DNA of 38,995 nt from a virus (IMGVR_UViG_3300044630_005613:1-38995), one strand, 5' to 3'. Shown: positions 4,267 through 37,973, counted from the stretch's first letter. A program made the numbers and translations. Notes: generated by a model not told the origin, from the letters alone.

Positions 4267-6951
4267 ATGAGTACAATATTCGTTTCACCAGGTGTATACA
4301 CAAAAGAACAGGACTTTTCAGTTTTTGCTTCTAGGATTGGTATCACTAGATTAGGATTGGTTGGTAAAACCCTAAAAGGACCTGCATTTGAAAGCGTAAA
4401 AGTGACAAGTACAGATGAATTCCTTTTGAGATTTGGTGGTACCAATGTAAAATATCCTATGCCTTATGTTGCTAACTCTTTCTTGTCACAATCAAACGAA
4501 TTGAATGTGGTAAGAATTTTGGGTACAACTGGTTTTCAAAATTCATCTGCTTGGATTATTGCCGCAGACAGATCTATAGAGTATGAAGGCTCTACTACCG
4601 CAACTGGTATAACTTTCAGCATTAACTCACTTACTGCTCCCGCTACTTACAATATCACCCTTTCTGCTGAGACAAGTGGTGGTACGGTTGGTATAATAAC
4701 TGCTACAACAGTTGGTAATAATACTGCAGTTGCTTTTATAGCACCTACAACTTCTGCTCAGCTATTAACAGGTCTTACTGCTTCTGCAGGATTCAATGCT
4801 TTGGGTATTAGTGCGACTGGTGGAAATACAACTGGAATTAGCGCATCTACTATTACATTGGCAGCTACAAATGTTGAACCTAGAGGCTCTGAGTCAGGTT
4901 CTACGCTGGCAATAATTAGAAGTAAGAAAAATCAAATTTCAGGAAACTTTTACTACACTGCTGAAAATCAAATTAAAATTGGAGCAATAACTTCAGCTTT
5001 AGCACCATTTGTTCTTTCAGCTTCAACAGGTCCATTATCTTTGATTACAAATAGTGGTTACACTGTATCTCTCGATGAAACACGTGACGATTATATCGTT
5101 AAGATTTTAGGAAAGAGTCCAGAGGTAACAACTGGAAATCCAGACTTCTATGTTGAAAGAATTTATCCTCACTTTGTAAGAGAGGCTGCTGCTAGACAAG
5201 AAATTTCAGGAATTAATCCTCAAATAGTTTACTCTACAGAAGCAGCTTATGAAGATTTTGAAGATTCATACACGAACGCAATTACACCTTGGATTGTATC
5301 TAGAGTTATTGGTGCAAACGTAAGAAGATTGTTTAGAGTACAAACTATTTCTGATGGTGATGCTTCTTCAAATGAAGTAAAAATTTCGATTGCAAATATT
5401 GATATCGTAAATTATACATTTGATTTAATTGTAAGAAATTATTTTGACACTGACGCAACTGCTTCTTCTACAGCATTAGAAAGATGGTCAAATGTGTCTT
5501 TAAATCCTGAGCAACCTAACTATATCGCAAAAATAATCGGTACAACTGATGAAACTTATCCAAGAAGATCAATGTTCATCACTGTTGACATGGAAGAAAA
5601 TCACCCTGTAAACACTGTGCCTGCTGGATTTGAGGGTTATTCTTTGAGAAACTCTGGAATTAGTGGTATCACAGAAACAAATGTTTACTATAAGACTGAA
5701 TATTTCCCAACGGATTCTAAATTCAAAACTTATTTAGGTCTTTCTGAGCTTGGATATACAAGTTTAACCCAGAATCAGATTTCTGTGAAAAACTCAGTTA
5801 AATCTTTAGAGTTTGACTTATTTGCTTATGACGGAGGCGTTTCTTCTGGAATGACTTCAATCAAAGGTTTCCACATGGAGAATACAGCAGATGCTACTCT
5901 TTTCATTAGTGGTGATAAAAATAGTTTAACAGGTTATACAAATGCTGCTGGAACTTTGATTGACAAAGCGCTTCTTAAATTTACAGTTGCACCTGCTGGA
6001 GGATTTGACGGATGGAATAAATACCAACAATACGACAACTTGTACGAAGAGTTTACAGATGCTTACGCTGATAATGTTAATTCTTTCAAATCAGGTATTG
6101 ATTTGATGGCTAGTCCTGAAGAAGTAGACATTAACTTGTTCGCAACTCCAGGTATAGATTTCTCTAATAATGATTCAATTATTACATATGCTCTTGAAAT
6201 TATTGAAGATAGAGCAGATACTTTGTACATCATGGATGCACCTAGATTAACTATTGGAACAGAAAAAGGAACTGCAGATGAAGTTACATCTATCCTTGAG
6301 TCTACTGGAATCGATTCTAACTATGCTGCTACATATTGGCCTTGGGTTCAATTACAAGATCCAACAAGTGGTAAGTACACTTATCAATCGCCTACATTTA
6401 TGGTTGTTAGAAGTATGGCTTATACTGACAATGTTGCAGCTCCTTGGATTGCACCTGCAGGTGAACTTAGAGGTCTTGCTCCAGCGAATGTTGTAAGAGC
6501 CGATGTTAAGCTTAAGAAAACAGATAGAGATACATTGTATCAAGGTAGAGTAAACCCAATCGCAACTTCAATTCAAGTTGGTGTTAAGATTGATGGTCAA
6601 AAAACTCTTCAAGTTAGACAATCTGCTCTTGACAGAATCAACGTTAGAAGATTGTTGTTACAAGTAAGAAGATTGGTTGCTGCGGCATCTCAAACTTTAG
6701 TGTTCGAACAAAACGACCAAACATTGAGAGATCAATTCTTGGCAAGAGTAGAGCCTATCTTGTTGCAAATCCAAAACCAAAGAGGTTTAACAGCGTTCAA
6801 GGTGGTTATGGATGATTCAAACAACACTAATGAGACAATCGATAGAAATACATTGGTAGGTAAGATTCAATTGAAACCAACAAGAACTGCAGAGTTTATA
6901 GACTTGACATTCCAAGTCTTGCCAACTGGAGCAAACTTCGAAGATTTTTAA
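4267..6951 (+). CDS. Tail sheath protein (T4 gp18-like)
   Basis: This 894-residue protein is a contractile tail sheath subunit. The N-terminus VSPGVYTKEQDFS and the following GLVGKTLKGPAF are hallmarks of the phage sheath family. The C-terminal third has the conserved core with APWIAPAGELRG, then NVRRLLLQVRRLVAAASQ and FEQND in the region that forms the inter-subunit handshake. T4 gp18 is 659 residues. The extra length includes a Thr/Ser/Ala/Gly-rich block at about residues 105-213 that looks like an exposed beta domain. The sheath surrounds the tube encoded on the opposite strand at 9774-10262. A terminator follows at 6978-7005. The start is not preceded by a Shine-Dalgarno sequence. Confidence 0.95.
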   Translation: MSTIFVSPGVYTKEQDFSVFASRIGITRLGLVGKTLKGPAFESVKVTSTDEFLLRFGGTNVKYPMPYVANSFLSQSNELNVVRILGTTGFQNSSAWIIAADRSIEYEGSTTATGITFSINSLTAPATYNITLSAETSGGTVGIITATTVGNNTAVAFIAPTTSAQLLTGLTASAGFNALGISATGGNTTGISASTITLAATNVEPRGSESGSTLAIIRSKKNQISGNFYYTAENQIKIGAITSALAPFVLSASTGPLSLITNSGYTVSLDETRDDYIVKILGKSPEVTTGNPDFYVERIYPHFVREAAARQEISGINPQIVYSTEAAYEDFEDSYTNAITPWIVSRVIGANVRRLFRVQTISDGDASSNEVKISIANIDIVNYTFDLIVRNYFDTDATASSTALERWSNVSLNPEQPNYIAKIIGTTDETYPRRSMFITVDMEENHPVNTVPAGFEGYSLRNSGISGITETNVYYKTEYFPTDSKFKTYLGLSELGYTSLTQNQISVKNSVKSLEFDLFAYDGGVSSGMTSIKGFHMENTADATLFISGDKNSLTGYTNAAGTLIDKALLKFTVAPAGGFDGWNKYQQYDNLYEEFTDAYADNVNSFKSGIDLMASPEEVDINLFATPGIDFSNNDSIITYALEIIEDRADTLYIMDAPRLTIGTEKGTADEVTSILESTGIDSNYAATYWPWVQLQDPTSGKYTYQSPTFMVVRSMAYTDNVAAPWIAPAGELRGLAPANVVRADVKLKKTDRDTLYQGRVNPIATSIQVGVKIDGQKTLQVRQSALDRINVRRLLLQVRRLVAAASQTLVFEQNDQTLRDQFLARVEPILLQIQNQRGLTAFKVVMDDSNNTNETIDRNTLVGKIQLKPTRTAEFIDLTFQVLPTGANFEDF

Positions 6952-19805: not shown

Positions 19806-20261
19806 ATGAAGAAGATAAATTTTAAGAAAGCAGCAGGTAGGGAATTAAGTAAGGCAAAGAAAAAAGCTAGAAGCCCTTTTGGGTCAAGCCAAGATTTGAA
19901 AAACAAAGCCTCTAAGATGTCAACAAAAATGACAAAACCAGAGAGGGAAATGAATCAAATCTTAACTGAATTGCAAGTTAAGTTTGAACCGCAAAAAGTT
20001 GTCGGATCTAAGATTTACGACTTCTATGTTCCTCAGGCAAACTTGCTTATCGAAGTTGATGGGGATTACTTTCATGCAAATCCTGATGTATATACAGAAG
20101 GTGATTTGAATTCAATGCAGAAAAGAAATGTAAAAAACGATGAGTTTAAAGATACTCTTGCCAACGGAAGAGGTTATGTTTTAACTAGAGTTTGGGAAAG
20201 TGACTTAGCAAAAAAATACGAAGAAGTAAAAGATAGCATAAAAAAACAAATAGGTTTATGA
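19806..20261 (+). CDS. PD-(D/E)XK nuclease, DUF559/Vsr-like
   Basis: This 151-residue protein has a Lys/Arg-rich N-terminal tail (residues 1-41) and a compact restriction-endonuclease-like fold. MTKPEREMNQIL supplies the N-terminal helix with a conserved Glu. The active-site pattern is D72 in IYDFYV, followed by E83 and D85 in LIEVDGDYFH, and VLTRVWESDL closes the fold. The DUF559/Vsr group contains nickases and repair endonucleases. Here it may serve DNA repair, recombination or packaging-related trimming; the sequence does not decide. The downstream gene begins inside its stop codon (ATGA). The basic tail could bind DNA. Confidence 0.8.
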   Translation: MKKINFKKAAGRELSKAKKKARSPFGSSQDLKNKASKMSTKMTKPEREMNQILTELQVKFEPQKVVGSKIYDFYVPQANLLIEVDGDYFHANPDVYTEGDLNSMQKRNVKNDEFKDTLANGRGYVLTRVWESDLAKKYEEVKDSIKKQIGL

Positions 20262-20781: not shown

Positions 20782-21642
20782 ATGGAAGAAAATGAAAAAA
20801 TCACCGTTGGCAATAACGCTAGTAGAAATACATCAGCGGCAGATGATAAAAAGACGGTTGCGCAAGGGTATGGTATTCCTGAAGAATTCGTTAACAATGA
20901 TGAATTTATTATTCCTACGGAAAAAATTGACCTTCCTTCTCAGGGGTTATTTTACCCAAACAAAAAATCTACAGTAGAAATTAAGTATATGACTGCTGAG
21001 GAAGATAACATCCTTTTCTCTTCAGACTTAATCAAGAGTGGTAAGGTTTTGGACGTTCTATTGGAAGCTGTAATTAAAGACAAAGATTTGAGACCTGACG
21101 ATATGCTTTCTGGTGACAGAAATTATGTTCTTATTGAGGCGAGAAGAACAGGTCTTGGAGATGATTATAAACCAGGAAAAATTAGATGTGAATCTTGCGC
21201 AAATGACTTTGAGCCAACTGTGGATTTGAGTTTATTAAAATCTAGAGAGATTACTGAAATCCCAGATTCTGAAGGATTCTATTCAGTAGTTCTTCCTGTA
21301 ACAAAAATCAACATCAAATTTAGACTTTTAAGAGGTTCTGATGAGAAGAGATTGAGCAAAGCCATGGAAAAGAAATCAGGAAATGCTAGAGTAAGCAGAT
21401 TAATTACTGAAAGATACTTGCTTCAAATTATGGAGGTAAATGGAAACAGAGACAAAACTTATATCAATAAGTTTATTTCTGCTATGCCAACAAAAGATTC
21501 TTTATTCTTTAGAGAATACAATAGACAGATTGAGCCAGGTATTGACTTGAATTATGAGTTTGAATGTGAACATTGTGGACAAATTCAAGAGCGTGATGTT
21601 CCAATTACAAGCAAATTGTTTTACCCTGATGCAGATGTTTAA
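20782..21642 (+). CDS. T4 gp26-like baseplate hub assembly protein, zinc-ribbon copy 1
   Basis: This 286-residue protein fits the T4 baseplate protein family (gp26/gp51 type). After a variable N-terminus it has the family opening LPSQGLFYPN, then YMTAEEDNILFSSDLI, then GDRNYVLIEARRTGLGDDY. Two cysteine pairs, C136/C139 (CESC) and C262/C265 (CEHC), can form one zinc site. Such proteins help assemble the central hub of the baseplate in T4-type phages. The next gene is a paralogue that starts on the last base of this stop codon (TAATG), so the two are coupled and may form a heteromer. Confidence 0.8.
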   Translation: MEENEKITVGNNASRNTSAADDKKTVAQGYGIPEEFVNNDEFIIPTEKIDLPSQGLFYPNKKSTVEIKYMTAEEDNILFSSDLIKSGKVLDVLLEAVIKDKDLRPDDMLSGDRNYVLIEARRTGLGDDYKPGKIRCESCANDFEPTVDLSLLKSREITEIPDSEGFYSVVLPVTKINIKFRLLRGSDEKRLSKAMEKKSGNARVSRLITERYLLQIMEVNGNRDKTYINKFISAMPTKDSLFFREYNRQIEPGIDLNYEFECEHCGQIQERDVPITSKLFYPDADV

Positions 21643-22685
21643 TGTCTGAAGAAAACAAAGATATAGAATTAAGAAAAAATATAAGTGAGTTAAAAGAAGA
21701 GTTTGATGTTTTTAAGGGTGAACATAGACACCTATTGGAGAACATAGAACAATTTACCGAAAAACTTAAAAAAGAGAATAAAAAACTAGAAAAGCCTTTT
21801 GAGATGTTAAACCTTCCTTCAAAAGGCTTTTTTTATGAAAATAAAAACAAGTACATTCTCATCGGATACCTTACTTATGTTGAAGAAAACTTGCTCACAA
21901 GTGAGATGCTTGTTGAGAGTGGTATTGCCTATGAAATTGCTTTCGAAAATTTGATATGCAATACTGACATTACCATAAACGAATTATTGACAGGAGATGT
22001 ACAGGCAATGGCTTTGGCGCTTAGGTCTTTTTCTTATGGAAATAATATAGAGCTCGACTTAAAGTGTGAGCATTGTCAAAAGATTGACAAGGCCACAATA
22101 CCACTTACAAGTTTTAAGATGAAGACGGTTGAGAGCGACGTGGATGATAATGGTGAAATTCCAGTCTATATAGCCAATGGTAAGATATTGATTAAAGTAA
22201 AGCCAATAACATTTAAGCAAGAAATAGAGCTAAACGCTAAAAAGAATAAAAAACCTTTAGAGGAGTTGGCTATTTATATCAAAGAATTTAATGGAGAAAG
22301 AAATCCAAACAAAATTCTGAATGCTATAAGAATGTTGAGGCTTTTAGAATCAAGAGACCTTAGGACGGCTATAAAAGAGAATACTCCAGGTGTTGATACT
22401 AAATACTATTATGAGTGTGATTATTGCGACAAAACAACGTTATATGATTTTGGGGGAAATACTTTTGATTTATTAAAACTACCAGCTAGTTATAGAAATA
22501 ATGTATTGGAGGAAATATTCTTATTGACTTACTACGGAAAGTCTATTACCATTGAAGATGCCAAGCAAATGCCAGTTACCGAGAGAAGATGGTTTATAAA
22601 TAGAATTAGTGAAGAGCTTGAAAAGCAGAGAGAATACGAAAAGAAAGAAATGTCAAAAGCTAGAAGTTCATCCAAGAAAAGATAA
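21642..22685 (+). CDS. T4 gp26-like baseplate hub assembly protein, zinc-ribbon copy 2
   Basis: This 347-residue protein is a paralogue of its upstream neighbour. It keeps the opening LPSKGFFYEN, the YLTYVEENLLTSEMLVES segment and the position of both cysteine pairs, C142/C145 (CEHC) and C259/C262 (CDYC). It has an extra N-terminal coiled-coil-like stretch (residues 1-50) and a longer, Lys/Glu-rich C-terminus (residues 285-347). T4 has separate gp26 and gp51 hub assembly factors, so two coupled copies could divide those tasks. It overlaps the first copy by one base. The next gene has its own promoter-like box. Confidence 0.78.
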   Translation: MSEENKDIELRKNISELKEEFDVFKGEHRHLLENIEQFTEKLKKENKKLEKPFEMLNLPSKGFFYENKNKYILIGYLTYVEENLLTSEMLVESGIAYEIAFENLICNTDITINELLTGDVQAMALALRSFSYGNNIELDLKCEHCQKIDKATIPLTSFKMKTVESDVDDNGEIPVYIANGKILIKVKPITFKQEIELNAKKNKKPLEELAIYIKEFNGERNPNKILNAIRMLRLLESRDLRTAIKENTPGVDTKYYYECDYCDKTTLYDFGGNTFDLLKLPASYRNNVLEEIFLLTYYGKSITIEDAKQMPVTERRWFINRISEELEKQREYEKKEMSKARSSSKKR

Positions 22686-29047: not shown

Positions 29048-32000
29048 ATGTCTAGTTTATTTGATGATAATAACGAAGAGGAAAGACAAGAGCAGAAATT
29101 GTACGAATTTTATGAAGTTTTTTCCCTTGAAGTTAGAAGGCAACTTTTAGCTAAGAATCTTCCTATTATCCAAAATGTCTATGATGTATTGTACCCTCAA
29201 ACAAAAAATACACTTTTATCTAAAAATGTCACAAGCGACATAACTATAGATAGTACTGCTGAAAGCGTAAGAAATGCACTAGTTGCTAAGCTTGTCGAGG
29301 ATAATATCAATATAGATACAATAAGTGAAAATTTCAGAAAACAATTACTTTCAAAAAATGTACTTGCAGACTCATCTAGAGAATTGCAATATAAGATAGA
29401 TCAAGTAAGAAAAAACTTGCTATCAAAAAATAAGAGTTCAAATCCAAATACGATTGATTCTATTTCTGATAGTCAAAGAAGAGATTCTTTAAGTAAAAAC
29501 AAAGAGTCTTTAAATAGGAATAATGAAATTGAAAGAGACAATATTTCTTTTAGAGAAAGTAATTTGAGCAAAAACGCTCAAACGGAAAATACATTAGACG
29601 AACAATCTGCTGAGTTTAGAAAAAACAATATTCACAAAAATGTTGATTCCAATAATGATTTAGATAGACAAGGTCAGCAAGCTAGGGATAATAATTTAGC
29701 AAAAAATGCAACTCTTCAAAATAATAAAAATGAGTTAGACACTATTGCTAATGAAAAAAGAAATATTCAAGAGGGTAGAAATACACCAAATCTAAAAGAA
29801 AATCAAGGATTAGAGATAGAGTCTGAAGAATTTAGAAATAACAATATTGCTAAAAATGTACCAGAAGAAACTTCTCTAGAAGACTCTTCAAGTTCTGTGA
29901 GAGATAATAATTTATCGAAGAATGATTCATCAGGCGGAGATTTACTAGAAGATTCTAGTGCATTTAGAAAGCAAGATCTTTCAAATAACGTACAATCAAC
30001 TAGTGATTTACTGACAGATTCTCAAGTATTAAGAGAAGATGATTTATCAAAAAATACTCCTACTGAGTCTAATTTGTTAGATTCATCAGAAGAAGCTAGG
30101 TTGAATGATTTATCTAAAAACGACGAATCAAAGAATGACTTATTAACTGATTCAGAAATTATTAGAAAAGACGACCTGTCTAAAAACACATCTATAGGTG
30201 GTGATTTATTAGTTGATTCAGAAGGTGTTAGAGATAATAATTTATCAAGCAATACCCCAAAAACTACTGATATATCTGTGGATAGCGAATCTTTCAGAAA
30301 AGATAATTTATCTAAAAACGCTCTTATTGAGAGTGACTTAGTGCTTGAATCTGAAGATTATAGAATAGACGATTTATCTAAAAATAAACCTAATGAATCT
30401 GATTTATTTGCCGACTCTTCTATAGTAAGAAATGATAATATTTCTAAAAACGTAGAGACAGGGGGTGATTTATTGACAGATTCAAATGTGGTCAGAGATG
30501 ACTCATTGTCAAAAACAGTTCCTGTCATAACTAACCTAGAGGTACTGTCTCAGAATCCAAGAGAAGATTTGTTGAGTAAAAATACACCCAACCCATCTGA
30601 TTTATTAGATAGAGGCTTAGTTCCTAGAGAAGACTTATTGGCTGCCAATGTCCCTAGTACTTCTGAATTGTTGTCAGATTCACAACCTTTTAGAGATGAC
30701 TTATTAGCTATAAACGTACCAGTAACAACAGATTTATTATTTGATTCACAGCCTTTTAGAGATAATGTATTAAGCGAGAATGTACCAACAACTACAGATT
30801 TGTTGAATGATTCAGTACCTTATTATGCTAACAATCTTTCTGCTAATGTACCTGCTGAATATGATATATTAGATGCGTCTCAGACTTTCTTAGATGCTAA
30901 TTTAGCGTCTAATAATTCTATAAATTCAGATTTACTTAATGATTCTTATGAAATACTACAAGATAATTTAGCGCCTAATGTACCTAATGACTCTGATTTA
31001 TTAGTAGACTCTCAAACATACTTGACTGATAACTTGGCGTCAAATGTACCTAATACTTCAGATTTGCTTGCTGAGTCATTGCCTATTAGAAATGATTTAA
31101 TAGCTAGCAATCAACCTAGTAATTCTGATCTATTAAATGACTCAAGTTTATATAGAGATAATTTGGTTGCTCAGAATGACAATGCAGAGCTTGGTGTTAC
31201 ATTTGAAGGTTTTGGTACATTCAGTTATTTAGGGGTATCGAAAGTGGCACTTCAAGGTTTGGTTATTAGATCTTTCTTAAAATCTAAGAATAAACCAAAT
31301 CCTCTTATGGATTTTGACCAAAATAATCCTATTAGTTATAGATTAGATGCTTTATCTAGAAATGATTATGTCTTAAATGATGCTGAATATAGTAGATCTA
31401 CGGCTGTATTGATTACAGGCAAGGTGGATGCACGTGGATTTCCTCTAAAGGGATATCCAAGCGCTTATCCAGACGAAGATTTATCGGCTGCTATAAGTAG
31501 ACAAATGGGTGAAAATAGGTTTTATACCGATGTGTTTGTTGAAAATTTACAATCAAAGTATGGAATACAGGATAAAGGAGATAAAACTACCTCGTTAGGT
31601 GGTGGATATTTTGGTGTAGACACTATAAATCCACAAGGTGGTTCTTTCCAACTTTCTAATAAAGCAGGTTCAGTGGTTATTTCTAGCCCAGGATATGTAG
31701 GTTCTACAACTATGGCAATTAGAAAATACAATGTTTCTAGAAACATATATAACTTAGTAGGCATACAAAACCTAGCATCAATGACCGAAGCTATAGGTGT
31801 TTTAAATTCTAATAATGATTTAGGCTTCCAAGATTTAATTAATAAAACGATTGGAGCATTCCATACTCCTAATAATTCTATTTCAGCACAAGCATTTGGA
31901 AATTTAATTCCAAGTAGTGTGTTGGAAACGAACAATAATCTGTATTTAAGAAAATCTGCAGAGGAAATGATGGGGAGAAATGAACCAACTGACCCACAAT

Positions 32001-33319
32001 TAAAAGCGAGTTGGATTGGCACTCCTGAATCTATGATGCAAAAAACAATAGCAGGAAACCCTTTGCAAGAGCCTGCTTTTGATACAAGCCAAAGAGGTGT
32101 TAAGCATATTATGAAAAGCATTAGAAATAATCCTAATGTTAAAATGTCGGTCAATTATGATCCTCAGAATACAAATAAATATGTGATTAAACAAACAAAG
32201 GATGGAACACCTACATATGCAAGTCAGAGATTTACGATAGCGAACCCTTATAGTCCGCCTTCGGCAAAATCTTTAACTTTTTCTTTTAAGAATTACTCAA
32301 GTGGTGATTTAGTATATTTGCCTCCTTATATAGATTCTTTTTCAGATTCACACACAGCAAACTGGAATGAGATAAATTTCCTTGGTAGACCAGAGCCAAT
32401 ATACACATATAACAACTCTAAGAGAGATGGTTCAATATCTTTCTTTGTTTTGACTGACTTTAGTGAAATTGTGCTAATGGGTAGGGAGTGGAATACGGCT
32501 GATATGAATAAAATAGAGAAAAGTATAGGTACATCATTTGCAAACAAAGCATCTTATAATGTTGCTGGGGCAATATTTGATGCAAGTGGCTTAATTGAGC
32601 AATATGGTGTAGATAATGAAAAAATTAAAGAATACGTGAATTTTAAGGCGGCTCAAAACACTTCTACGACAGTGCCAACTACAGGACAAACAGAAGCGGC
32701 TCAAGCTGGTGATACCCCTGCGAATAACGCAGAAGCTGAGCCTGAAACTGCAGAACAAACAGAATATCAAAAGATTTTAGCTGAAACAAAATCAAATTTA
32801 GAAAATCAAGTTAATTTAGTGTCAGAAACTTTAGATGAAGATTTTATATATGCTTTAGCTAGTGAGACAAATAAAAATATATATGATTTCATGACTAGTA
32901 AGTCTACTCCAGAAAATGGAGAGATTACATCAACACCTGGAGATACTTTAGCTAGATTAGATGAAATGATACAAGGTACAATATTCCAACCTGCTTATTT
33001 TTCTGGATCCAAGATTGATTTTTTACAAAGAATGGATTTCTTAGCGAAATTAACAAAACCAGCGAAAGCATCTGAAGGGTCAGGTTATTCATTTACTAGC
33101 CCTCCTGTGGCTCACATCAAACTAGGAAATTGGTGGAATCATGATATTGTTGTAAAAACAGTCTCTGTAGATTATACGGATTCGCCTTGGGCATTAGATG
33201 CAGGAAGAGTTCAACCATTATGGGCTAAGGTAACAGTCAGTTTTGATTTTGTAGGAAGATATGGTGGTGAAGGAGCCCCTGTTTTATCTACAGATTCTGG
33301 CGGTGTATATTCATCTTGA
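29048..33319 (+). CDS. Giant repeat protein of the baseplate/tail module
   Basis: This 1423-residue protein has three parts. Residues 1-37 are an acidic N-terminus. Residues about 38-710 are a tandem array of about thirty units, each with the pattern D-L-L-x-D-S then R-x-D-N-L-S-K-N; the last twenty units (residues 271-710) are each exactly 22 residues. Residues 711-1423 are a non-repetitive domain that includes GRPEPIYTYNNSKRDGSISF and a C-terminal beta-rich part, resembling LysM-associated or hub-linked proteins of contractile tails. It lies between the tape measure and the gpX-like gene, which supports a baseplate/hub role. The array may form an extended arm. The repeat family is not recognised, and the N-terminal units are more divergent and variable in length. 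Confidence 0.82.
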   Translation: MSSLFDDNNEEERQEQKLYEFYEVFSLEVRRQLLAKNLPIIQNVYDVLYPQTKNTLLSKNVTSDITIDSTAESVRNALVAKLVEDNINIDTISENFRKQLLSKNVLADSSRELQYKIDQVRKNLLSKNKSSNPNTIDSISDSQRRDSLSKNKESLNRNNEIERDNISFRESNLSKNAQTENTLDEQSAEFRKNNIHKNVDSNNDLDRQGQQARDNNLAKNATLQNNKNELDTIANEKRNIQEGRNTPNLKENQGLEIESEEFRNNNIAKNVPEETSLEDSSSSVRDNNLSKNDSSGGDLLEDSSAFRKQDLSNNVQSTSDLLTDSQVLREDDLSKNTPTESNLLDSSEEARLNDLSKNDESKNDLLTDSEIIRKDDLSKNTSIGGDLLVDSEGVRDNNLSSNTPKTTDISVDSESFRKDNLSKNALIESDLVLESEDYRIDDLSKNKPNESDLFADSSIVRNDNISKNVETGGDLLTDSNVVRDDSLSKTVPVITNLEVLSQNPREDLLSKNTPNPSDLLDRGLVPREDLLAANVPSTSELLSDSQPFRDDLLAINVPVTTDLLFDSQPFRDNVLSENVPTTTDLLNDSVPYYANNLSANVPAEYDILDASQTFLDANLASNNSINSDLLNDSYEILQDNLAPNVPNDSDLLVDSQTYLTDNLASNVPNTSDLLAESLPIRNDLIASNQPSNSDLLNDSSLYRDNLVAQNDNAELGVTFEGFGTFSYLGVSKVALQGLVIRSFLKSKNKPNPLMDFDQNNPISYRLDALSRNDYVLNDAEYSRSTAVLITGKVDARGFPLKGYPSAYPDEDLSAAISRQMGENRFYTDVFVENLQSKYGIQDKGDKTTSLGGGYFGVDTINPQGGSFQLSNKAGSVVISSPGYVGSTTMAIRKYNVSRNIYNLVGIQNLASMTEAIGVLNSNNDLGFQDLINKTIGAFHTPNNSISAQAFGNLIPSSVLETNNNLYLRKSAEEMMGRNEPTDPQLKASWIGTPESMMQKTIAGNPLQEPAFDTSQRGVKHIMKSIRNNPNVKMSVNYDPQNTNKYVIKQTKDGTPTYASQRFTIANPYSPPSAKSLTFSFKNYSSGDLVYLPPYIDSFSDSHTANWNEINFLGRPEPIYTYNNSKRDGSISFFVLTDFSEIVLMGREWNTADMNKIEKSIGTSFANKASYNVAGAIFDASGLIEQYGVDNEKIKEYVNFKAAQNTSTTVPTTGQTEAAQAGDTPANNAEAEPETAEQTEYQKILAETKSNLENQVNLVSETLDEDFIYALASETNKNIYDFMTSKSTPENGEITSTPGDTLARLDEMIQGTIFQPAYFSGSKIDFLQRMDFLAKLTKPAKASEGSGYSFTSPPVAHIKLGNWWNHDIVVKTVSVDYTDSPWALDAGRVQPLWAKVTVSFDFVGRYGGEGAPVLSTDSGGVYSS
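29858..31177 (+). repeat. Twenty in-register 66-bp coding repeats
   Basis: The segment encodes twenty consecutive 22-residue units with no length change. Conserved positions are a Val-Pro or Thr-Pro opening, S/T-D-L-L, D-S, an aromatic or aliphatic residue then Arg, and N/D-L-S-K-N at the end. Later units replace S-K-N with A-x-N. DNA identity between units is moderate, so the array is old or under diversifying change rather than a recent slippage product. Confidence 0.9.
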
Positions 33320-33350: not shown

Positions 33351-33662
33351 ATGCCATACGATTTTTATAAATATCTGCAACAACCAAATAATCCTAGAGC
33401 TTTAAAGGATATGCCCCCAATTTCTATTCAAAGAAGAAAGACGGATAAATTTATCATATACGATAGAGGCAAGGTTAGGCTTGACTATATAGCAGGTCAG
33501 ATATATAACGATGAAACATTGACAAGGGTTATTCTTTGGGCAAACCCTGAATACTTTATAGAATTTGATATTCCACCTGGAACGGTTATAAGAATTCCAT
33601 ATCCAATCAATGATGTTTTGTCTGAAATAACTCAACAGTTGGTGAACTATTCTAGTCAATGA
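33351..33662 (+). CDS. gpX / gp53-like LysM-type tail protein
   Basis: This 103-residue protein has the pattern of LysM-fold tail proteins (Phage_tail_X type): RLDYIAGQIYNDETLTRVIL, then WANPEYFIEFDIPPGTVIRI, then PYPI. In simple contractile tails gpX binds the hub; in T4 the gp53 wedge protein contains a similar fold. The N-terminal 45 residues have a PISIQRRKTDKFIIYDRGKV strand-rich extension. It stands 31 bases after the repeat protein and 6 bases before the hub gene, with no promoter box between, so it is probably in one unit with the hub. Confidence 0.7.
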   Translation: MPYDFYKYLQQPNNPRALKDMPPISIQRRKTDKFIIYDRGKVRLDYIAGQIYNDETLTRVILWANPEYFIEFDIPPGTVIRIPYPINDVLSEITQQLVNYSSQ

Positions 33663-33668
33663 TAATCT

Positions 33669-36600
33669 ATGCCAATAGAAAATAATATAATAAGACCAGA
33701 TGATGTACCATTTAAAATAAGCGATCCAGGTTTTTATTTAGACGGTAGCTTAACTGCTATTGTAGATGGTAGTTGTTATGATTTTATGGGTCGTGCAATA
33801 TTTACAACTGGATTTTTCAGAGAAAACATTGGATTTGGAATCATCAATATCGATATAGAGATAAATCAATCTTTACAGCCTATTATAACTATTACCCTTA
33901 AGGATTTATATGGAAATGCTGTATTCGGAAAAGAGGTAATCGACCAAGAAGTTCCTGATTACTCTGTTTTATTTAATTGGCCACCACCAAAATTCTTATT
34001 TACATTTAAGGGCTATCTAGGAAAGCAGGTGTCTTGGATGCTTAGTTTAAAAAAGACAGGCACCACGTATCAAGCTGATGGAAGTTATGAAATTAAATGT
34101 GAGTTCGTACCAAACCAGTGGGGATTTATGGGTGATTTACCGTTCCTTTTCCTCCTAGCTGTAAAGGGCCTTAAGAGAAAAGAGCTTCCGCCAGACAAAT
34201 TTAAGACATTACAAACTATATTTGACTTAATTAAGATTGGTAAAAAAGTTGAAGTTAAGACAAAAGAGGTATCTAGAGAATTTGATACCCTATTGCAACA
34301 GATGACTTTAATTAAAGCTGGGAGAATTGTCGAAGCTATATGTTATAGTCAACTTGTAAAATTAGAAGAAGAAATAGATGGAACAGCAGGTAATCTTAAA
34401 ATTACAGGTAATGGTTCTTTAAATTTCGCAAAGGTAACTATAAATCCAGCTAAAGAATTTCTTTTCTCTAACTATGACAGTATTGAAAAAATAAAAGAAT
34501 ATACAACAAACAGTGCAGAAGCATTGAGAAAAATGAATACTTTTTTGTTTTTAAATGCAACAATAGATGGTGCGGCTCCAGTAGCATTATCAACTGTTAA
34601 TGATGTAAATTTTGATAACGGAGGATATAAAGAAGAAGAATCAAGACAAAGAGCTCAAATAATATCCAACAACATCAAGTTAATTGAGGATGCGATAAGA
34701 CAAAGAGCTTACGAATCTTCAAAATCTCAATTGAGACAAGTTACAATTGGCGAGATATTTAAACAGCTTGCTCAAGATTCTGGTTATATTTTGGGTAAAA
34801 TATTGGAGGCAGGTCAAAAAGGTTTTGAGGCAGATCCTGGTAGAGAAGATGCAGCGAAAAACAATCAGATTATAGGGATGCAATATCCTTTGATGATTGA
34901 CCCTGACAAAGATGAGGAAATTCCAGCTAAGGGATATGCTGTTGCTGAAAACGAGCTCGCTTTCGTAAATGAATTTATTTCGGCGATTAGCGAAGGAGTT
35001 GCTCTCGACTTAGTTCAAGACAATCAAGCGCTAGGCTTAGCAAATGATAATGCATTGGTGAAAAGAATAAATAATGTTGAAGCACCTAGGGGAAATCCTT
35101 ATGCTCCATTCTTTAGAAACATCGCTCAAAACATAATGATTAGAGCAGGTATTATTGGTTTTTTAACTAGAAGTAGTGATCCAAATTACCCAGGAGATTA
35201 TGATACATTTTGGGGTATAGATAGAGAATCTATAGAGGAGATATTAGAATTAGCCGCTGCTGATATGGAAAACATTTCAACAGGTATGTTATCTCAATTA
35301 GACAACAAAGAATATATACAATTAAGACAATTCTGTAATTATTGGAAAAACTTAATGACAGAAGACGGTTTATATTATTTAGATGATGAAGGGGCAGCAA
35401 CAACCACTGAAGTGCCAACTAATGATTTTGGAGACCCTTTAGGTGGAAATTTGGCTACTCGTGGCGTTATCGTAGATAAAGCATCTGACACAAGAAAAAC
35501 ACTGAATGGTATATTTAATGAAGTTTTTGGTAGTATTGCAGAGACTGAAAATACTGTGGGCGGTGTTATAGATAACTCTAGTGCTCTTTATATAAATAAG
35601 GAAAATATGCAGTCTCAAGCTGTGTATAATAATAGAATATTATATAGAGTGCCAAAAACAGATAAGGCGGAAGATGATTATATATATGTATTATTTCAAG
35701 GTGCTGATGCAACAAAAGCAAAAGAGTCAAATACTGCAAATAGTGATGGAACTGTAAAGGGCGAAAATTTAGATGAAACTTTATTAGGTATTGTACCAAT
35801 TGATTCATTTAAGGGCAGTGATGATGCTGAGTTAGGCAGAGTATCTCTTATTAATAAAAGATTTGCAATTTCTGTATTGAAGTATTCTGAAATGGCAAAC
35901 CCAGCAAGGCTTACCTGGAAAGATGCAACAAATTGGGATAAAAATGTAGTTTTTGATTTAACAGCAAAAATAGTAGACCCAAAAGCTGAAACAACAGATA
36001 ATGAAACGAAAATTGACCCAGCAGGATTAGCTGTAACTGTAGCTTTTCACCCTTATTCTGCAGATCAAGGTTTAGTTTTTGCTCCTTTTTATCCAACCTC
36101 TTCTGGTCGAAACCACAGAGCTGCAATAAAGAAGATGTGTACAGTTATTTTAGAAAAAATGGACACACTAGAAGAAGAAAGAAATAAAGTAATATCTAGC
36201 GTTGTAGGAAAAGCTGAGGAAGGAAAAAATGCATTATATAAACAATTTCATGTATTATATCATCAATGGGAAGTGATGATGTTTAATGACTCAGATACTG
36301 ATAATAACTGCAGCAATCCAAAAATAAGCTCAAAGTCTATTGTAAGTACGCTAGAAGATAGATTCGGCGCATCAAAGTCAAGTGATAGACACGTGTCAAT
36401 AAAAAAAGAAAGCAGAAAGGCTAGGATAAAAACACTGGACTCTAATGTTTTTATTTATGACTGCCCCGTTAGTGATGTTGCAAATATTGATGTTAAGAAT
36501 TCACTGATAAATATCGAACCTCTATATAAGCCTGATGGTAATACAACGGTTTTAAATATGATTCAGCAACTTTGTACTAAGAATAATTTTACATTTGTTG

Positions 36601-37973
36601 CCGTTCCTGGTAATGGTGATTTTAATGATTATTCAGAAGTTTTTAAACCACATCCTTCAACGCCTCAAAAAATTCAAAATCTTTTTTATGTTTTATTCTC
36701 TCCAACGCCAGAGAGCAGAACAACTTTATCAAATTCCAGTCAGGTTGTTTTATCTCAAGCAAAAAGCCCAGTGTTGAATACTGAGGCGTTTGAGGTGAAA
36801 GTAGGATCTACTGAGAATAAAATATTTAAAGGTATAACTATAGATAGTTCTGAAAATAAACCAACAGCGGAAAGTGTTTTTAATCTACAAAAATTAACTG
36901 ATAATCAAAATCAAAATAAAAAAGTTGGAATAGAATGCTCAACGCTTCCAGTAATGGAGGGCAAGAGTTATATGGCAGGTTTTACTATGCTTGGGAATGC
37001 TCAAATATTTCCTATGCAATATTTTTATTTAAATAGCATACCATTGTTTAATGGGTTGTATCAAATAAAGACTGTAAAGCATAATATTACACCAAATAGT
37101 ATGACAACTACCGCAGAGGGAATGAGAATGAGAATGAGTCTAGGTGAAGCTGCGTCCATTAGGCCGATTACATTAGAAACTTTTGAAAACTTAGGCATAC
37201 AAATAGATTCGTTAGATGTTGATGAGTTAACAGGTAGACCGTTTATTACTAGACCAATTGTAGCGCCTACAACAGCCGCTGCATACCCTCTTGTAGAAGC
37301 CGCAGATTCTGAGTCTATTGCTGGAGGAACTCCTTCGGGTGAATACATACCATATGATAAACTATCGACTCGTACTCAAGGTATTTTAAATATGAAAGAT
37401 ACTTTGGTGGTAGTAAGAGAATTTTCTGATGCTAAAAGAACTGGAGGCACTATGTGGTATAATAAAAAAGTTTTAGGCTTCACAGTTGAAGACCCTGTTA
37501 GAACTAAAAAAATTGCTGATAAAACGGCTATACCAAACGGTTATTATTTTATTGCCTTAGATACAACTAGTAATGAAAATTTAACTAGATGTTATGTTAG
37601 ATTTCCCCAAGATTCTAGATCTAAATTTAAAAGCCCAGGAGTTTTTCCTAGAGTTGGATCAACTACAGATGCGGTTTCACTGAAAGGTTACGGTTTAAGT
37701 TTTGGAGGTATTAGAATTCACAATGGAACTGACGAAAATTGGTCTTCAGGTTGTATTATATACTCATCTGAAAGATTGACTGATGGTAGATTAAAAAATG
37801 ATGTAAACCACTGTAAGGTTTTAACAAAGCTTATTTATGATGATAAATTAGATAGAATAGTTGTAACGAATGAATTTGAGAGACTAGGAGAGCAAACTCC
37901 AAACACAAATACAGGAACGGCAACGAATACTACAAGTCAGACGTGGTTGCCAGATTGGCTACCAGATTTTTAA
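33669..37973 (+). CDS. Baseplate hub protein (gp27/gpD-like) with C-terminal DUF5675-like domain
   Basis: This 1434-residue protein combines hub-type parts with a terminal enzyme-like domain. The N-terminal region (DPGFYLDGSLTAIVDGSCYD, NWPPPKFLFTFKGYLG, FVPNQWGFMGDLPFLFLLAV) is shared with the paralogue that starts at 38024. At about residues 1085-1160 there is a hub-type segment (STLPVMEGKSYMAGF, MLGNAQIFPMQYF, GLYQIKTVKHNITPNSM). Residues about 1235-1410 resemble DUF5675, with TVEDPVR, KTAIPNGYY, GIRIHNG (H1351) and SSGCIIYS (C1362), a His/Cys layout like that of L,D-transpeptidase-type folds. Puncturing or cell-wall processing during entry is plausible. The middle has long Glu/Lys- and Asn-rich linkers. 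Confidence 0.82.
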   Translation: MPIENNIIRPDDVPFKISDPGFYLDGSLTAIVDGSCYDFMGRAIFTTGFFRENIGFGIINIDIEINQSLQPIITITLKDLYGNAVFGKEVIDQEVPDYSVLFNWPPPKFLFTFKGYLGKQVSWMLSLKKTGTTYQADGSYEIKCEFVPNQWGFMGDLPFLFLLAVKGLKRKELPPDKFKTLQTIFDLIKIGKKVEVKTKEVSREFDTLLQQMTLIKAGRIVEAICYSQLVKLEEEIDGTAGNLKITGNGSLNFAKVTINPAKEFLFSNYDSIEKIKEYTTNSAEALRKMNTFLFLNATIDGAAPVALSTVNDVNFDNGGYKEEESRQRAQIISNNIKLIEDAIRQRAYESSKSQLRQVTIGEIFKQLAQDSGYILGKILEAGQKGFEADPGREDAAKNNQIIGMQYPLMIDPDKDEEIPAKGYAVAENELAFVNEFISAISEGVALDLVQDNQALGLANDNALVKRINNVEAPRGNPYAPFFRNIAQNIMIRAGIIGFLTRSSDPNYPGDYDTFWGIDRESIEEILELAAADMENISTGMLSQLDNKEYIQLRQFCNYWKNLMTEDGLYYLDDEGAATTTEVPTNDFGDPLGGNLATRGVIVDKASDTRKTLNGIFNEVFGSIAETENTVGGVIDNSSALYINKENMQSQAVYNNRILYRVPKTDKAEDDYIYVLFQGADATKAKESNTANSDGTVKGENLDETLLGIVPIDSFKGSDDAELGRVSLINKRFAISVLKYSEMANPARLTWKDATNWDKNVVFDLTAKIVDPKAETTDNETKIDPAGLAVTVAFHPYSADQGLVFAPFYPTSSGRNHRAAIKKMCTVILEKMDTLEEERNKVISSVVGKAEEGKNALYKQFHVLYHQWEVMMFNDSDTDNNCSNPKISSKSIVSTLEDRFGASKSSDRHVSIKKESRKARIKTLDSNVFIYDCPVSDVANIDVKNSLINIEPLYKPDGNTTVLNMIQQLCTKNNFTFVAVPGNGDFNDYSEVFKPHPSTPQKIQNLFYVLFSPTPESRTTLSNSSQVVLSQAKSPVLNTEAFEVKVGSTENKIFKGITIDSSENKPTAESVFNLQKLTDNQNQNKKVGIECSTLPVMEGKSYMAGFTMLGNAQIFPMQYFYLNSIPLFNGLYQIKTVKHNITPNSMTTTAEGMRMRMSLGEAASIRPITLETFENLGIQIDSLDVDELTGRPFITRPIVAPTTAAAYPLVEAADSESIAGGTPSGEYIPYDKLSTRTQGILNMKDTLVVVREFSDAKRTGGTMWYNKKVLGFTVEDPVRTKKIADKTAIPNGYYFIALDTTSNENLTRCYVRFPQDSRSKFKSPGVFPRVGSTTDAVSLKGYGLSFGGIRIHNGTDENWSSGCIIYSSERLTDGRLKNDVNHCKVLTKLIYDDKLDRIVVTNEFERLGEQTPNTNTGTATNTTSQTWLPDWLPDF

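Follow-up and report, generated by a model that had tools for sequence, protein, structure and literature searches.

A repeat arm of a baseplate-module phage protein covaries in length with the tape-measure protein

A virus with a contractile-tail gene set encodes a 1423-residue protein with a long N-terminal array of short repeats, and among its relatives the length of such arrays rises and falls with that of the tail tape-measure protein (TMP). The repeat is genuine and matched in length to the TMP, and it is conserved in a family for which the profile libraries gave no match. The window analysed, a 38,995-base IMG/VR virus record (IMGVR_UViG_3300044630_005613:1-38995), contains sheath, terminase, portal, DNA polymerase and baseplate genes (Table 1).

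The repeat array and its gene surroundings

Counted by its Arg column with a circular 22-column profile, the array comprises 31 units over approximately residues 23-710, with the consensus VPSNSDLESDSEPFRNDDLSKN. In the alignment of the last 20 units, the Arg positions run from 285 to 703 with a constant step of 22. Lag-22 residue identity was 0.350, against a maximum of 0.132 in 2000 residue shuffles over lags 8-59. These results bear out the initial annotation, which had described about thirty units, twenty of them in perfect 22-residue register. It had also read the motifs D-L-L-x-D-S and R-x-D-N/D-L-S-K-N correctly, and the regular Pro opening that it mentioned is frequent (13/20). In the last 20 units, S11 and N22 are each present in 19, L7 in 18, L19 in 17 and R15 in 16. 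As the conserved positions of these units are encoded by mixed synonymous codons, and unit-to-unit DNA identity is mostly 60-70%, the units are old and conserved as protein. ORF starts were assigned mechanically, and repeats in metagenomic sequences can be misassembled.

Searches with the array of the window protein gave no Pfam match at E 0.1 and no PHROG match. An AlphaFold model of the array (nine sequences) predicted about one helix of ~15 residues and a 7-residue linker per unit, with low confidence and no packed solenoid (mean pLDDT 50, pTM 0.16), so that the array may be a string of short helices, one per unit; the model does not point to a particular fold. The resemblance to the amphipathic 11/22-residue helices of apolipoproteins or synucleins, the former suggested initially, is weak: it extends to the 22-residue, Pro-punctuated spacing and, in the low-confidence model, to one helix per unit, but the window units are acidic, polar and of low complexity, match no Pfam repeat family and have no clear 11-residue sub-period (lag-11 identity of 0.128 in the window, at shuffle level given the maximum of 0.132 for all lags).

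Table 1. Features of the window discussed in the text
Feature	Position	Strand	Evidence
Tail sheath, 894 aa, contractile tail	4267..6951	+	phrog_23 E=2.7e-65
Two adjacent T4-baseplate-family (hub) genes	20782..22685	+	phrog_150 baseplate hub on both; PF12322 on second
Tail tape-measure protein (TMP), 1146 aa	25510..28950	+	Heptad periodicity; homology to immuto and Mel-JY01 TMPs
Repeat-arm baseplate protein, 1423 aa	29048..33319	+	ORF translation; no Pfam/PHROG match
N-terminal head, residues 1-22	29048..29113	+	Alignments: conserved among 22-aa-type relatives
Initial ~11 units (residues 23-270), unit length 22-25 aa, small insertions	29114..29857	+	Circular profile, Arg columns of alignment
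In-register block of 20 units (residues 271-710), each exactly 22 aa	29858..31177	+	Arg-column alignment, lag identity, unit composition
C-terminal region, residues 711-1423	31178..33319	+	Parts conserved in relatives with and without arrays (alignment, blastp)
Conserved C-terminal domain, first half, W-N-x5-GRPEPIYTY-x4-RDGSISF	32258..32473	+	Alignment, viral scan, at least 581 encoded relatives
Conserved C-terminal domain, second half, FQPAYFSG ... PPVAHIKLG ... W-x-VTVSFDF	32981..33262	+	Alignments
LysM/tail-X-like baseplate protein, 103 aa, directly downstream	33351..33662	+	phrog_7145 (baseplate wedge family) E=5e-9
1434-aa protein with C-terminal DUF5675	33669..37973	+	Pfam DUF5675 E=1.2e-7; hub/spike-type position

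The TMP gene lies directly upstream of the arm gene, with a gap of 98 bp. Homologues of its product are the annotated TMP of Flavobacterium phage immuto and the TMP of Microcystis phage Mel-JY01, the latter with matches to PHROG tape-measure families. The TMPs have mainly 7/14 heptads of the coiled-coil type, and TMP repeats sharing the period of the arm were looked for and not found. The Mel-JY01 counterpart of the 103-aa downstream protein matches phrog_7145, the LysM chain 7aeb_M (E=0.0013) and, weakly, Phage_tail_X (E=0.04); we take PDB 7aeb chain M to be Alg7. The order TMP, arm protein, LysM-like protein is common to the window, Mel-JY01 and immuto. This position, together with the adjoining tail and baseplate genes, supports the original assignment of the protein to the baseplate module.

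By position, the 1434-aa protein is a putative hub/spike-type gene; DUF5675 is a family of unknown function. The adjacent phrog_150 genes suggest a duplicated hub-type gene. The sheath is long, and its conserved match covers mainly residues 379-891. An ORF resembling HNH/homing endonucleases (19806-20261; phrog_559 E=2e-15) is found among the structural genes of the window, and in one close relative a 371-aa ORF rich in CxxC/CxxH-type motifs, resembling a homing endonuclease, lies between the TMP and arm genes (L088:5383-6498, minus strand).

Relatives, unit types and family placement

A scan of viral contigs retrieved at least 581 encoded relatives of the C-terminal domain, the two halves of which are split by an insertion in the window type. 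No relatives came from a scan of genome contigs. Counting repeats in related phages showed that the arrays are conserved. Arrays of 22-aa units are present in the window, L087-L090, L169-L174 and L334-L361 (about 20 distinct). Arrays of 44-aa units are present in Mel-JY01 (2255 aa; WWT39329, annotated as a hypothetical protein) and its relatives (49 distinct with a complete TMP, Mel-JY01 included), some members of this family having other best periods, from 39 to 63. WWT39329 and its relatives share with the window protein a homologous C-terminal domain, the gene position and an N-terminal array that scales with the TMP, but the 44-residue units are aromatic-rich and not detectably related to the 22-residue unit. 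The huge phage LR756508 (L004:32765-37504), for which a single-sequence scan found no close relatives in IMG/VR, encodes a 1579-aa homologue with 52.8 very acidic 17-aa units, and a TMP of 1602 residues. All three unit types stand upstream of one conserved C-terminal domain. Their profiles show no mutual resemblance beyond that of shuffled columns, and a candidate common motif, V-P-x-x-[S/D], performed no better than column shuffles. Relatives devoid of arrays include immuto-like proteins (mostly ~580-880 aa), a protein of Rhodothermus phage RM378 (458 aa) and an L091-like group.

PDB, Pfam and PHROG searches with the conserved C-terminal domain gave nothing significant, and an AlphaFold model of the C-terminal half (5 sequences) reached a pLDDT of 30 and was not used for fold searches. 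The proposed likeness of this half to hub-associated tail proteins was therefore not recovered by sequence or fold. In profile comparisons, the domain did not match the CIS_tube family. The T4 gp48 family was the closest profile, still at a non-significant hhalign P=0.04 (probability 1.3%), and neither T4 gp54 (P=0.57) nor P2 gpU (P=0.17) showed significant similarity. Given these results, we do not claim membership of a tube-initiator family.

Our proposal of a tube-initiator type derives from the gene order TMP, initiator-like protein, LysM. In the window, Mel-JY01 and immuto the gene lies between the TMP and the LysM/hub genes, the LysM part of this statement resting on the Mel-JY01 counterpart. 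The known tube initiators Alg7, Mu gp43, T4 gp48/gp54 and P2 gpU share this place after the TMP and beside a LysM-type gene, but to our knowledge none of them has a long repeat arm. In AlgoCIS, Alg7 is the tube initiator and joins a barrel to a LysM domain (PMC8894135); the initiator gp43 of Mu forms a hexamer and includes a LysM-containing domain (PMC11915804). We regard the protein as a probable variant of the baseplate/tube-initiator type, with a putative tube-initiator fold. No description of such an arm was found in the open-access literature searched.

Covariation of arm and tape-measure length

For each phage we determined how long the TMP is, how many units the arm protein has and how long its remaining parts are, with TMP length as the stand-in for tail length in all comparisons. 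Phylogenetic correction was by independent contrasts on trees built from the C-terminal region only, leaving the arm out. In the 44-aa family (n=49), the number of units correlated with TMP length (r=0.77, Spearman 0.81), and the relation TMP = 586 + 19.5 x units + 0.98 x pre-array residues had an R2 of 0.91 and a residual sd of 23 aa; this R2 is descriptive, since the two-term model was picked from among many regressions after seeing the data, and the pre-array coefficient is partly a matter of how far the profile still recognises degenerate units. By contrasts, the two-term model gave an R2 of 0.69, or 0.74 without the insert-bearing clade, with p<1e-9 for both coefficients (about 1e-10), and C-terminal length added to it had a coefficient of ~0 (p=0.93). 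In a 32-phage subset R2 was 0.89, a value reached in 0 of 20,000 permutations. The more conservative single-term contrasts remained significant both for units (p=3.5e-4) and for the arm (p=1.4e-5), and by contrasts neither the length of the downstream gene nor C-terminal length alone was related to the TMP in this family. Arm length alone predicts TMP length worse than units plus pre-array residues because one clade (L321-L329) has insertions inside its units. The mean spacing there is 52-63 residues, and the unit count is still near that expected for the TMP length.

In the 22-aa family (n=20), the correlation between arm and TMP length was r=0.86 (p=6e-6 for the contrast r of 0.83). The control is not clean here, since TMP length is correlated with the length of the C-terminal part as well (contrast r=0.71); with C-terminal length in the model, the arm term weakens but stays significant (p 3e-4 to 4e-3). 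Several diverged phages have 31.0 units at a TMP of 1126-1148, a separate clade has 28.6-28.9 units at 1049-1059, and three members (L173, L344, L351) show recent unit turnover. The initial idea of a length-adjustable element is thus supported, as the covariation persists after phylogenetic correction in both families.

Among the array-less relatives, the N-terminal length of immuto-like proteins (L003, L005-L084) tracks the TMP (contrast r=0.52, p=7e-5, n=53) and their C-terminal length does not. The L091-like group shows no relation between N-terminal and TMP length, and three relatives (L253-L255) combine long TMPs (1166-1186) with no array; the arm is therefore not required.

The number of TMP residues per unit depends on the direction of regression. 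For the 44-aa family we obtained 14.5-19.5 by regressing TMP on units with the pre-array term, 21.7 by reduced major axis and 26-37 by inverting the slope of units against TMP (raw data and contrasts); the corresponding values for the 22-aa family were 15.7-23.8, 20.8 and 23-30. These agree despite a twofold difference in unit size, whereas arm residues per TMP residue differ between the two families (0.97 vs 1.37-1.55), so units rather than residues look matched to the TMP. With a rise of ~1.5 A per residue for a helical TMP and of ~40 A per tube ring, one ring corresponds to ~27 residues, a value inside the bracket given by both regression directions; one unit per tail-tube ring is therefore compatible with the data, not proven by them. 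LR756508, as a single point, falls close to the line of the 22-aa family (TMP of 1602 residues, ~1599 expected by reduced major axis).

Possible roles of the arm

TMPs set tail length in the phages where this has been tested. The TP901-1 TMP, for instance, contains 29 repeats, each 11 or 18 residues long, and these affect the length of the tail (PMC5099701). TMPs, including that of TP901-1, resemble the arm in that their length scales with the tail, but here the TMP is a separate upstream gene and the arm protein has no PHROG tape-measure match.

Across dozens of relatives arm length follows the TMP, so the arm is probably a second element, matched in length, that extends along the tail. We give about an even chance to a baseplate component, probably of the tube-initiator type, whose long N-terminal arm lies along the tail or the TMP with ~1 unit per ring. 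The C-terminal half would sit at the tail base, with the TMP on one side and the LysM/hub proteins on the other. Short docking units in series would make up the arm, each one in the window type a predicted ~15-residue helix and 7-residue linker, stretched along the tail or the TMP at roughly one unit per tail-tube ring. Threading of the arm during tube growth would keep unit number in step with the TMP and could give the arm a part in assembly or length fidelity. It is possible, although on balance doubtful, that the initiator arm is a second, covalently repeated ruler, so that arm and TMP set or check tail length as two matched molecules, and that the arm, its 17-, 22- and 44-residue units being unrelated in sequence, arose or was rewritten on three or more occasions.

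The same scaling is expected if the arm is a tethered sleeve whose units bind the TMP before tube assembly, in the manner of tail assembly chaperones, and are displaced as rings polymerise, leaving none along the finished tail. The adjoining genes agree with this, and a helix per unit could pack against the TMP heptads. However, the known tail assembly chaperones are not baseplate proteins but have genes of their own, usually frameshifted, that precede the TMP gene, and in the 22-aa type both arm and TMP are net acidic; we consider such a sleeve unlikely.

A flexible spacer or appendage projecting from the baseplate, as envisaged initially, would suit a low-complexity, acidic, Pro-punctuated arm predicted to have no tertiary structure (pTM 0.16), whose copy number varies and whose units are still duplicating in some phages. 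It offers no reason why, in the 44-aa family, the make-up of the arm should predict TMP length with an R2 of 0.91, whatever the C-terminal part. We therefore regard it as quite improbable, and the covariation points along the tail rather than outward. There is also little probability, in our view, that arm and TMP covary without being physically linked, through shared ancestry or because tail genes change in size in general. The C-terminal correlation in the 22-aa family and the array-less group lacking any relation would fit such an origin, but the relation is kept in contrasts on trees built without the arm, and in the 44-aa family neither the C-terminal part nor the downstream gene follows the TMP.

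The prevailing view is that the TMP sets tail length. That the arm covaries with the TMP in two families whose units are unrelated, ~70 phages in all, suggests that contractile tails have another length-matched part. This makes the register between rulers and tube rings testable, and provides a clue to the function of a family not described in the profile libraries used.
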